From Kofleriaceae bacterium (GTDB lineage: Bacteria; Myxococcota_A; Polyangia; Haliangiales; Haliangiaceae), in NCBI GenBank assembly GCA_018058095.1, contig JAGPCO010000002.1:62001-126000 (forward strand): a stretch of DNA of 64,000 nt, written 5' to 3'. The notes under the pieces are model-generated. The model was not told the origin of the DNA, did no database searches, and worked only from the letters and a program-made list of their open reading frames with translations. Positions 11,248 through 61,516 of this stretch are shown piece after piece (the first letter of the stretch is position 1; each line of letters begins with the position of its first letter). Made by a program: the position numbers and the translations under genes.

Positions 11248-11392
11248 GCCGGCACGGTAGCCAGCGCCGCCGGCCAGCGCAACCCGCCCGCGCGCCGGCT
11301 AGATCTCAACAGTGAAAAGGCGCGCGACGCTTCTAGAGGAGTCCGACTCCGTAACGACTTCGGATCGCCCCGGGGTCGGCCTTCGGCCTCGC

Positions 11393-11667
11393 GCTGTGGA
11401 CAGGCGCATGCCAGCCGCCCGCGCCACGCGAACCAAGGCGACGGCGCCTGCCCACAGCGGTCCCCCCGGGGACTATGGTGGCTTCCCAAGCGGATCCTTT
11501 CGAATCCGTCCCTGACCCAGACCCCACCCGACGAAGTCGGGTGTCTGGGTCCAGGGTGGAAATACCCTCAGGGTCCGCCTACCCAGGCCCGGGCGGACTG
11601 CTGTGGGCAGGCGCTCCCTCTCTCTACGCGCCGCGCCGCCCCTCCACGCCCTGCGCCTGTCCACAGC
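11393..11667. repeat. nested palindrome upstream of RAYT
   Basis: There are two nested pairs of arms. The outer pair (11393-11407 and 11653-11667) is an exact 15-nt inverted repeat, GCTGTGGACAGGCGC and its complement. The inner pair (11444-11458 and 11600-11614) is also exact, GCGCCTGCCCACAGC and its complement, and extends imperfectly by about 13 nt (GGTCCCCCCGGGG against AGTCCGCCCGGGC). Both pairs and the central hairpin share a centre of symmetry near 11530. The outer and inner arms are near-copies of each other, so four copies of one 15-mer are present. This is the architecture of clustered REP/BIME or IS200/IS605-like terminal structures. Confidence 0.75.
11514..11551. repeat. REP-like hairpin (central element)
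   Basis: Stem GACCCAGA...TCTGGGTC outside a 3-nt bulge, then CACCCGAC, loop GAA, GTCGGGTG. Weaker pairing continues outward to about 11502-11561. The core CCACCCGACGAAGTCGGGTG plus TCTGG (25 nt) recurs exactly inside the adjacent transposase gene at 12435-12459. Such hairpins are typical substrates of REP-associated transposases. Confidence 0.7.
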
Positions 11668-11787
11668 AGGAGGCTTCAGCCGACGCCCGGGCCGGTCCAC
11701 GCCGCACACCCCGCCGGGGTCTGCACCCTCGCCGCACGCCCGACGAAAACCCTTGGCTCGGCCGCCGCGATGATATATAAGCTCTAA

Positions 11788-12609
11788 ATGTTTCCATCCG
11801 CCGCCCGCCCGCGCAGCGGCAGCCGTCGCCGCGCCGTGCCGGCCGGGGCCCAGGTCACCTTCGACGACCTCATCCGCGGCATCACCACGCCACCACGGCG
11901 GCCGCGGCGGCGCCGGCGCGGCCGGCCGCCCATGCAGCACCGCAACTCGGTCAAGCGCTGCGCCAGGCCTCGCTTCGCGAGGACCACCGTCCACCACGTC
12001 AGCCTGCGCACCGTCGACACCCTGCCCAGGCTGCGCACCCACGCCGGCCGCGAGGTGCTCGAGCGCGCCCTGACCGGCGCGCGTGACCACACCCGCGTCA
12101 CCGGCTTCCGCGTCCTGCACTACGCCCTCGAAGGCAACCACCTCCACCTCATCGTCGAGGCCGACGATTACACCGCGCTCTCGCGCGGCATGAAGGGGCT
12201 AGCGATCCGCCTGGCCCGCGGCTGGAACAAGGCCTTCGCCCGGCGCGGCCGGGTCTTCGCCGACCGCTACCACGCCCGCCCGGTCACCTCGCCGACGCAG
12301 ATGCGCAACACCCTGCGCTACGTCCTGTTCAACCACGTGAGTCACTCCGTCCGGGATTGGCAGGCGAATCGCGGCCAGCTCCGTCAGCGCCTGCGGTTCT
12401 TCGAGCCCGACCGGTGGTCGTCAGGGCGATGGCTCCACCCGACGAAGTCGGGTGTCTGGCTCATCGACGGGTCTCCGCCTTCCGGCGGCGCCCCGTTGAG
12501 CGCCCCCGCCACCTGGCTCGCCCGCGAGGGCTGGCTCCGCGCCGGCGGGCCGATCGCCCCGGCCGAGTTGCTGGACCGACGGCCTCCACGCCCTCCACGC
12601 GCGCGATGA
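11788..12609 (+). CDS. REP-associated tyrosine transposase (RAYT, Y1/IS200-like)
   Basis: The 273-residue protein carries the HUH nuclease motif as HLHLIV (118-123) in YALEGNHLHLIVEADD, followed by RGRVFADRYHARPV and YVLFNHVSH, which are typical of RAYTs; the tyrosine in the latter segment is the likely nucleophile (about residue 178). RAYTs cut and move single-stranded REP hairpins and are usually single-copy, domesticated relatives of IS200/IS605 transposases. The N-terminal 50 residues are Arg-rich and the ATG at 11932 is an alternative start closer to the usual family length. The gene has a palindromic region upstream and a REP core inside its own C-terminal coding part. Confidence 0.9.
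   Translation: MFPSAARPRSGSRRRAVPAGAQVTFDDLIRGITTPPRRPRRRRRGRPPMQHRNSVKRCARPRFARTTVHHVSLRTVDTLPRLRTHAGREVLERALTGARDHTRVTGFRVLHYALEGNHLHLIVEADDYTALSRGMKGLAIRLARGWNKAFARRGRVFADRYHARPVTSPTQMRNTLRYVLFNHVSHSVRDWQANRGQLRQRLRFFEPDRWSSGRWLHPTKSGVWLIDGSPPSGGAPLSAPATWLAREGWLRAGGPIAPAELLDRRPPRPPRAR
12435..12459. repeat. REP core inside the RAYT coding sequence
   Basis: This is an exact 25-nt copy of the core of the upstream hairpin (11524-11548), including the 8-bp stem and GAA loop. It is translated as approximately LHPTKSGVW (residues 216-224), after the catalytic domain. It looks like an insertion of the element into the C-terminal coding region that kept the frame. Confidence 0.75.
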
Positions 12610-12678
12610 CGGTGCCGCGCTTCGACGGGGCCTGAGCGAGTCCGGCCTTCGCGGCGTCAGATTGCGGAGTCGGCCCCC

Positions 12679-13086
12679 CTAGCTGCCGATGCCGATGTCG
12701 AGCTGCGCGGTCTCCTCATCGAGGTGGATCGACTCGATGACCAGGTCGTCGATGACGTGGAAGGCGCGGCCGTAGTCGCCATCGACCAGCTTGTTCTCCA
12801 GGTTGGGGATGTCCTGCTGGCTCGCGCCCCGGTAGATCGTGCGATAGGCCTGCCGGATGGCATCGATGATCTGGCGCAGCGACGGCCCCGCGTCAGTGAT
12901 GATCTCGCCGTGGTACGGCCGGTCGAACGGGTAGTCGAGAGTGAAGGTCAGCCTCGACAACGCGCAGACCCGATCATCGAGGCCTTCGATGGGCGCCTCG
13001 GTCGACTCTTCCGAGTCCTGGTCGAACTGCGAGTGGGTGTAGTCGCTGGCGGCGACCGAAACGTTGCCTTCGTACAAGGTCCGCAT
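12679..13086 (-). CDS. hypothetical protein, 135 residues
   Basis: The protein is acidic, with an N-terminal polar segment (ASDYTHSQFDQDSEESTEA) and a mixed alpha/beta core. Its amino-acid use, with more Tyr, Ile, Asp and Ser than neighbouring genes, and its slightly lower GC suggest possible horizontal transfer, in keeping with its position next to the RAYT gene. No motif, signal peptide or membrane span is seen and I do not recognise it. Start ATG at 13086; 24 nt separate its start from the stop of the methyltransferase gene upstream on the same strand. Confidence 0.6.
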   Translation of the reverse strand: MRTLYEGNVSVAASDYTHSQFDQDSEESTEAPIEGLDDRVCALSRLTFTLDYPFDRPYHGEIITDAGPSLRQIIDAIRQAYRTIYRGASQQDIPNLENKLVDGDYGRAFHVIDDLVIESIHLDEETAQLDIGIGS

Positions 13087-30559: not shown

Positions 30560-30584
30560 GCAGGCTGCTGGAGAAGCAGCCTGC
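30560..30584. repeat. short hairpin, GCAGGCTGCT family
   Basis: GCAGGCTGCT, 5-nt loop, AGCAGCCTGC: a perfect 10-bp stem. It is adjacent to a long member of the same repeat family (30602-30670), as is also the case at 61392-61506. Confidence 0.6.
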
Positions 30585-30601
30585 TAGTCGCCTTCGATCT
30601 C

Positions 30602-30658
30602 GCAGGCTGCTGAGAACACGACGCCCGTCCCGTCGGCAGGAGCCGCCGGCACGGTTCT

Positions 30659-30670
<12 letters not shown>
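30602..30670 (-). repeat. long hairpin repeat (about 69 nt), copy A
   Basis: The ends GCAGGCTGCTGA...TCAGCAGCCTGC pair with each other, and the interior contains CCCGTCCCGTCGGCAG...GCCGGCAC, which folds again. On the minus strand it is about 90% identical to 49739-49807 and close to 61392-61461. Its end covers the stop codon of hflX (last codons and TGA). It is probably a terminator or a mobile REP-like element. Confidence 0.75.
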
Positions 30671-48416: not shown

Positions 48417-49738
<1,322 letters not shown>

Positions 49739-49739
<1 letters not shown>

Positions 49740-49807
49740 CAGGCTGCTGAAACACCGGGCCGGCGGCTCCTGCCGACGGGACGGGCGTTGTGTTTTCAGC
49801 AGCCTGC
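49739..49807 (+). repeat. long hairpin repeat (about 69 nt), copy B
   Basis: It starts at the last base of the sigma factor stop codon: GCAGGCTGCTGAAAC...TTTTCAGCAGCCTGC, with an interior CCGGCGGCTCCTGCCGACGG. Nearly identical to copy A (30602-30670, opposite strand) and related to copy C (61392-61461). It could serve as a terminator for the sigma gene and the convergent IPT/TIG gene. Confidence 0.75.
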
Positions 49808-61388: not shown

Positions 61389-61391
61389 CTA

Positions 61392-61461
61392 GCAGGCTGC
61401 TGAAAAACCCGTGCCGGCGGCTCCAGCCGACGGGACGGGCTCCGTGTTTTCAGCAGGCTGC
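61392..61461 (+). repeat. long hairpin repeat (about 69 nt), copy C
   Basis: GCAGGCTGCTGAAAAACC...TTTTCAGCAGGCTGC, 3 nt after the stop of the secreted protein gene. It differs from copies A and B at a handful of positions. Followed after 14 nt by a short hairpin of the related family (61476-61506). Confidence 0.75.
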
Positions 61462-61475
61462 GAGATCAGAAATGA

Positions 61476-61506
61476 CTAGCAGGATGCTTCTTCAGCATCC
61501 TGCTAG
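61476..61506. repeat. short hairpin, CTAGCAGGATGC family
   Basis: CTAGCAGGATGC, 7-nt loop, GCATCCTGCTAG: a perfect 12-bp stem located 10 nt past the parB stop. Same core as 4235-4259. It may terminate parB transcription. Confidence 0.65.
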
Positions 61507-61516
61507 CGTCGGGCGG

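Follow-up and report, generated by a model that had tools for sequence, protein, structure and literature searches.

The giant palindrome that lies upstream of a RAYT-like gene in the 64,000-nt stretch of Kofleriaceae DNA analysed here (the window) probably forms the left module of a RAYT-related Y1 (HUH single-tyrosine) transposon that is present in many copies, inserts at CTAG and uses the palindrome as a DNA assembly site. The palindrome belongs to one dispersed unit, in which the giant nested palindrome and the Y1 gene stand, in this order, between two terminal inverted repeats, with CTAG at both outer ends. The window copy of this unit measures about 1.35 kb from the left to the right CTAG (11333–12682, + strand), as delimited by the limits of its homology to other copies. 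RAYTs are known mainly as single-copy, domesticated enzymes, and it is not settled how they relate to REPs and true transposons. The RAYT-like gene described here appears to reside still inside an autonomous high-copy transposon, in a genome with hundreds of REPs that carry the same CTAG tag, and with both in one genome it can be tested directly whether REPs spread by the same chemistry by which RAYTs transpose.

Architecture and conservation of the nested palindrome

The palindrome contains two exact 15-nt inverted pairs, which the first-pass annotation had described and which direct reading bears out. The outer pair comprises GCTGTGGACAGGCGC (11393–11407), the exact complement of GCGCCTGTCCACAGC (11653–11667), and the inner pair comprises GCGCCTGCCCACAGC (11444–11458), the exact complement of GCTGTGGGCAGGCGC (11600–11614); the two pairs share a centre at about 11529–11530. 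We denote the four arms A (GCTGTGGACAGGCGC, + strand), B (GCTGTGGGCAGGCGC on the − strand), B′ (GCTGTGGGCAGGCGC, + strand) and A′ (GCTGTGGACAGGCGC on the − strand). Four 15-mers are indeed present, but they are not four copies of one sequence, as had been proposed: there are two versions in two copies each, one base apart (A/G), with GCTGTGGACAGGCGC forming the outer pair and GCTGTGGGCAGGCGC the inner pair. As a single strand, 11362–11698 (+ strand) folds back into one long hairpin, larger than previously stated. This foldback has a z score of −9.2 as DNA and −11.5 as RNA, with none of 100 shuffled sequences equally stable, and the RNA fold reaches −222.7 kcal/mol. The gapped self-complementarity of the window copy is 61.7 bits and exceeds the 99th percentile (50.9 bits) of 457 control windows from the same genome; one of these controls scored 63.5 bits, above the window copy, and the copy-number evidence is therefore stronger than the score of the window copy alone. 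Among 29 copies from this genome scored in the same way, 18 exceed 50.9 bits and the weakest reach 30–43 bits.

Alignment of 26 copies revealed that the four arm blocks are nearly invariant, with loops between them that differ freely in length and sequence, and the arms are the most conserved non-coding part of the element. A small hairpin at 11491–11508 (+ strand), CGGATCCTTTCGAATCCG in the window and CGGATTCTTTCGAATCCG in most copies, is likewise nearly invariant (motif CGGATTCNTTCGAATCCG). We considered this hairpin (CCCGRCGAAGYCGGGTGTC) as a CGTC-tagged REP and rejected the assignment: the loop length and the A/T first pairs given in the available excerpts of PMC3733652 do not fit. The central hairpin CCCGACGAAGTCGGG, previously seen as the core of the structure, is present at 11527–11541 (+ strand) but sits in a variable loop rather than in a conserved core; at this position most of the aligned copies carry CCCGGCGAAGCCGGG, and CCCGACGAAGTCGGG occurs in the window copy and in L048. 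A second copy of CCCGACGAAGTCGGG lies within the transposase gene (12438–12452, + strand), where it encodes a PTKSGVW insert that is missing in 3 of the 17 intact genes and in the aligned relatives from other genomes. This small hairpin repeat, in frame in most transposase genes, also recurs in variable loops of the palindrome.

The two halves of the palindrome differ at fixed positions across the 26 copies of this genome (G000), and therefore the halves are not undergoing homogenisation there. A covariation test in the same genome found two-sided change in 1 of 96 pairs; because the arms hardly vary, it is uninformative on pairing.

Extent, copy number and probable CTAG targeting

Homology between the window copy and other copies begins at about 11337 and ends at about 12683–12690, and it starts and stops with terminal inverted repeats that are 19 bp long in the consensus (CTAGGAGTCCGACCCCGTA on the left, TACGGGGTCGGACTCCTAG on the right). 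In the window copy, copy comparison places the left repeat (GGAGTCCGACTCCGTA) at 11338–11353 (+ strand), and the right repeat (TTGCGGAGTCGGCCCCC, 12662–12678, − strand) is degenerate. Boundary analysis assigns the left CTAG, on the target side, to 11333–11336 and the right CTAG to 12679–12682, followed by C. No second long gene was recognised within the element besides the transposase.

The arm motif GTGGRCAGGCGC has 174 matches in the 7.57-Mb draft genome, versus 2 for a reversed-pattern control, and 0–15 matches in each of 35 related genomes. The first-pass annotation had named such a genome-wide count as the check on its reading, with the absence of further copies as the outcome that would speak against it; further copies are plentiful. 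The listed matches are mostly ordered +, −, +, − at spacings of about 50, 160 and 50. The palindrome or its left part is found at 46 or more places in the genome, at least 40 of them by BLAST with the palindrome and six (L199, L200, L201, L207, L208 and L212) through their left ends; as 40 of 179 BLAST candidates were scored, this count of palindromes is a minimum. A search with the transposase protein gave 58 matches in the same genome (another listing of the gene gave 34), including 18 that are full length without a stop, one that is full length with a stop and many others cut by contig ends. The DNA identity of the copies to the window copy is about 77–94%, and one copy, L202 (contig C162), is a 381-bp deletion derivative in which both terminal repeats but only half of the palindrome remain. 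All genome matches of the terminal-repeat motif GGAGTCSGACYCC but one fall at element ends, as assigned by comparing positions by eye; the exception (C9:33418) lies inside other DNA. Judged by position, these terminal repeats were not seen on any other element of the assembled genome, and in a 393-kb sample of it the palindrome core is not abundant as solo copies.

The palindrome thus belongs with the RAYT-like gene, and the option of an element end, one of those offered in the first-pass annotation, is the one that holds: it forms the left module of the roughly 1.35-kb transposon. From the dispersal of the copies we infer that the element moves. When flanks were searched for in 24 genomes each, relatives yielded nothing beyond short spurious matches, and no empty site was found because these relatives are too distant.

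At the left boundary, CTAG is present in 32 of the 50 loci taken as left ends and is preceded by G in 26 of these 32; the 18 presumed left ends that lack it are degenerate, or are matches of the left query to the mirrored part of the palindrome. At the right boundary, CTAG is present in 15 of 20 loci and is followed by C in all 15. The tetranucleotide is rare in this genome, with 73 sites outside the element in 393 kb (L118–L137), 38 of them preceded by G. Most of these sites (58 of 73; 79 of 146 strand tests) coincide with the stop codon that closes an open frame of 80 codons or more on either strand. Of the element ends with CTAG, 20 of 32 on the left and 10 of 15 on the right fall at such stop codons, about the same share as CTAG sites overall, and therefore CTAG targeting alone explains the landing of the element at gene ends.

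CTAG sites other than gene ends often mark the termini of members of a separate, CTAG-tagged REP family (CTAGCAGGNNGCTG), which has 232 motif matches in this genome and 0–10 in the 35 relatives. Its sequence differs from that of the palindrome, and only CTAG(C)AG is common to the REPs and the element ends. In the left flanks of L054, L199, L201 and L211, the REP sequence CAGCA(T/G/C)CCTG stands directly before CTAG, and the right flank of L077 begins with CTAGCAGGCTGCTG, which matches the same family. These flanking sequences suggest that CTAG was already present at the REP targets before insertion, and that the CTAG-tagged REP family may also serve as an insertion target of the transposon.

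The transposase and its expression

The transposase gene (11788–12609, + strand) encodes a 273-amino-acid Y1/HUH protein with an HUH motif (H118-L-H120) and a tyrosine at Y178, as indicated by a Pfam Y1_Tnp match (E 1.3e-5), alignment and fold match. The NCBIfam REP_Tyr_transpos match is weak (31 bits, below the cut-off of 80). Six residues (H118, H120, E124, N147, Y178 and N182) are invariant in 30 aligned sequences, and the tyrosine motif reads YVL(F/L/N)N, without NP. A profile search reaches the ISDra2 transposase and TnpAREP (E about 0.004–0.005), and Foldseek of a two-sequence AlphaFold model returns ISDra2, IS608 and TnpAREP (4er8 among the matches; E 3e-5 to 4e-4). This model has a mean pLDDT of 49.6, with block means of 65–82 at residues 71–170. 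Outside this core the pLDDT is below 50, and a DNA-binding domain for the arms is therefore only conjectural; the C-terminal part has no match to Bac_DnaA_C or an HTH domain at E values up to 5. Over 136 pairs of 17 intact genes (17 of the 18 full-length genes without a stop, C133 being left out), the median dN/dS is 0.24 (range 0.07–0.45), which clearly points to purifying selection on the transposase genes.

A TATATA element (11774–11779, + strand) is likely the −10 box, given its constant spacing to the start codon: in all 17 copies compared, it precedes the start by the same short distance. A consensus scan found neither a sigma-70 promoter nor a terminator. With an invariant TATATA near the start codon, transcription likely begins after the palindrome, and this sequence arrangement suggests that the palindrome is located upstream of the likely promoter and outside the mRNA leader.

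The position of the promoter weighs on the possibility that the palindrome is transcribed as a regulatory RNA ahead of the transposase gene, where it would either limit expression of the gene or act as a separate structured RNA partner. Such a role would agree with the very stable RNA fold and has a precedent in ISPpu9, whose transposase, according to the available excerpts of PMC8450116, is regulated through 5′-UTR structure and sRNAs. However, the message probably starts downstream of the palindrome, as the TATATA of all 17 copies indicates, the near invariance of the arms in sequence goes beyond what pairing alone asks for, and there is no credible Rfam match, all of which leaves a regulatory RNA unlikely. 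As for known structured RNAs, the single Rfam match was MIR820 (E 0.13, far under the gathering score), which we took as a chance product of the inverted repeat.

The terminal repeats raise a different possibility, in which a DDE transposase acting in trans (for example, an IS5-like enzyme) moves the unit and the Y1 gene is a passenger. IS5-like DDE elements can duplicate CTAG-like targets, and 19-bp terminal inverted repeats with CTAG on both sides resemble a DDE element with a 4-bp target duplication. The ends are equally compatible with either mechanism, since a 4-bp duplication yields the same sequence as Y1 insertion after CTAG, in which, as in IS200/IS605, a target tetranucleotide is joined by a copy at the right end of the element. 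The Y1 genes, however, are under purifying selection with HUH and Y kept, and by position no further element of the assembled genome was seen to carry these repeats. Compared with an IS5-like element that makes a CTAG-type 4-bp duplication, the unit has no recognised DDE transposase, and its terminal-repeat matches are, all but one, its own. We consider transposition by a DDE enzyme very unlikely.

Related genomes, known systems and proposed mechanism

Y1 genes of this kind are present in 26 of 36 genomes (54 of 289 at E 1e-20) and are often multicopy in the lineage. Giant palindromes occur upstream of Y1 genes in other genomes at 3 of roughly 100 loci (L106 and L167 in genome G011, and L240 in G007); the first set held 77 loci including the window, some fetched twice and several with short upstream stretches at contig ends, and 27 loci were added. 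The palindrome of L106 is 542 bp long with 78% self-complementarity (403 bits) and that of L167 is 495 bp long with 82% (478 bits), against the control 99th percentile of 50.9 bits from the 457 G000 windows, and that of L240 spans 260 bp (85 bits). They differ in sequence from the window palindrome but share the same architecture upstream of the same kind of gene, and searches for the G011 palindromes found them in that genome alone, apart from a single weak match in G015.

In G011, the halves within one copy are 86–88% alike, versus 82–84% for the same halves between two copies. Relative to L167, L106 and L220 have 11 and 15 two-sided compensated pairs, respectively, where independence predicts 1.8 and 2.2, and the counts fall to 0–6 when the partners are slid by 1–5. 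Pair-breaking two-sided changes number 6 and 4, and one-sided changes 24 and 35, for the same two loci. In this alignment L220 was taken in its better-aligning orientation rather than in gene orientation, and one row is the L167 place fetched twice. One motif changes jointly at four places, from GGATAACCGC to GGAGAACTGC. Base pairing or shared binding sites could be the cause of this co-change of the halves.

These comparisons bear on the view that an inverted duplication left the palindrome behind as a relic without function, carried along passively by the element. The fixed, unhomogenised differences between the halves in G000 would fit a relic, as would the deletion derivative L202, with both terminal repeats kept and half of the palindrome lost, and the weak palindromes of several copies (L051, L057, L060, L081 and L053). 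Yet the arms stay nearly invariant over 26 copies while loops and flanks change, and some related genes are also preceded by palindromes, different in sequence, whose halves co-vary in G011. A relic is accordingly highly improbable.

Under the preferred reading, a CTAG-inserting transposon whose palindrome acts as DNA, the transposase would cut at CTAG at both ends and join the element 3′ of a target CTAG, as IS200/IS605 elements do at their own tetranucleotides. Insertion would be steered to harmless sites, because CTAG is rare and is found mainly at stop codons and in CTAG-tagged REPs; aiming at a tetranucleotide kept mainly at stop codons would be a way for the element to spare its host. 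The palindrome would provide the assembly site, where inverted TGTGGRCAGGCGC copies are bound by the extra parts of the transposase or by a host protein, and arm binding would synapse the element or time transposition. The palindrome probably also keeps the promoter of the transposase gene under control. Against the palindrome as a general need stands its rarity elsewhere, with 3 examples among the roughly 100 Y1 loci from other genomes, and it is therefore not needed by every relative.

The arms also resemble DnaA boxes, with the consensus taken as quoted in PMC6006769: one arm of L167 contains a perfect TGTGGATAA, and near misses in related arms include TGTGGAGAA in L106 and TGTGGACAG in the window. 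This likeness may be due to chance. In a more far-reaching version of the preferred reading, the element would represent a distinct class of Y1 transposon, in which the giant palindrome serves as a DNA-level control and assembly centre, DnaA-box-like sites couple transposition to replication initiation or DnaA-like binding, and CTAG targeting turns gene ends and REPs into safe places to insert, tying the REP family to a live autonomous transposon; as a whole, we regard this version as quite unlikely.

With IS200/IS605 elements (IS608 and ISDra2), our element shares the catalytic core, the HUH motif, the single catalytic tyrosine and the fold, as well as a transposase as its sole gene. CTAG on both sides would agree with site-specific insertion beside a short tetranucleotide, as in those elements, though no empty site was found in the relatives searched. 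To our knowledge, long inverted repeats do not bound IS200/IS605 elements, which have small subterminal hairpins instead. In contrast, our element ends in long terminal inverted repeats and has a giant palindrome in its interior in place of two small subterminal hairpins, its transposase is longer and its copies are diverged.

The closest described kind is the TIRtron/TIRYT. In the available excerpts of PMC3733652, TIRtrons (TIRYT, TIR-associated tyrosine transposases; Di Nocera et al. 2013) are RAYT-like genes between inverted repeats, some of them repeated and some self-complementary, with a described consensus of GGGGWSAS. As in these TIRtrons, a RAYT-like Y1 gene lies here between terminal inverted repeats that are unrelated to GTAG REPs. 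Our element is set apart by its copy number (the whole unit, gene included, is present in dozens of copies), its internal palindrome (337 nt, nested, in the left part), its CTAG specificity, with CTAG bounding the unit, and its tyrosine motif. In working, the element resembles both the TIRtron and IS200/IS605, yet lacks a defining feature of each.

The excerpted parts of PMC6006769 (Quentin et al. 2018) state that subclass 2.1 of TnpAY1 probably corresponds to TIRYT, and place most TIRtrons there; the C-terminal helix-turn-helix of this subclass was not found in our transposase. Subclass 2.3, described there as multicopy and diverged (mean 3.9 copies, 74.8% identity) and without REPs, is similar to our element in having multiple, diverged copies. 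Class 2 shares the tyrosine motif Y---NP in that account, whereas our motif lacks NP and our protein has no Bac_DnaA_C match. A giant palindrome is absent from the TIRYT descriptions in the excerpts of PMC3733652 and PMC6006769, and a literature search at the level of titles and abstracts found no description of a giant palindrome upstream of a Y1 gene.

Like the RAYT/REPtron (TnpAREP with GTAG REPs, as excerpted from PMC8266576), our element combines a Y1/HUH transposase, with 4er8 among its structural matches, and palindromes with a tetranucleotide tag. It differs in that the tag is CTAG instead of GTAG, the gene is multicopy and the palindrome is about ten times the size of a REP. RAYT/REPIN systems have a single- or low-copy gene, compared with 58 matches here, and flanking GTAG REPs that are abundant as solo repeats, compared with a CTAG tag and genomic REPs of other sequence. 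A REPIN/BIME cluster beside a single domesticated RAYT that mobilises REPs genome-wide, which corresponds to the REPIN array offered as one option in the first-pass annotation, agrees with the RAYT-type protein (NCBIfam REP_Tyr_transpos), the hairpins and the CTAG-tagged REP family of the same genome, but has hardly any probability left, as the palindrome and its own transposase gene travel together in one transposon in dozens of copies, the arms come in four-arm units tied to the gene rather than, in the 393-kb sample, as abundant solo repeats, and the REPs have only CTAG(C)AG in common with the element ends.

Several further repeats and genes were observed in this genome. A second Y1-type gene family is present at five or more loci (L083, L085, L086, L088 and L089) and is distinguished by NHWH and YVLAHGVKEG motifs and long C-terminal parts; we rejected these five loci as the maker of the CTAG-REPs, as no CTAG-REP lies at their flanks in the stretches examined. 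The CTAG-REPs of this genome have the form CTAGCAGG. In the window, composite palindromic repeats with CTAG ends (CTAGCAGGCTGCTGAA... and CTAGCAGGATGCTTCTTCAGCATCCTGCTAG) are located at 30561–30670, 49736–49806 and 61389–61507, and are members of the REP/REPIN-like family with 232 exact motif matches. Runs of a CCCGTG unit (CCCGTGCCCGTGCC) are among the commonest 14-mers in the sample of this genome (for example, L125–L131), often beside CTAG repeats.
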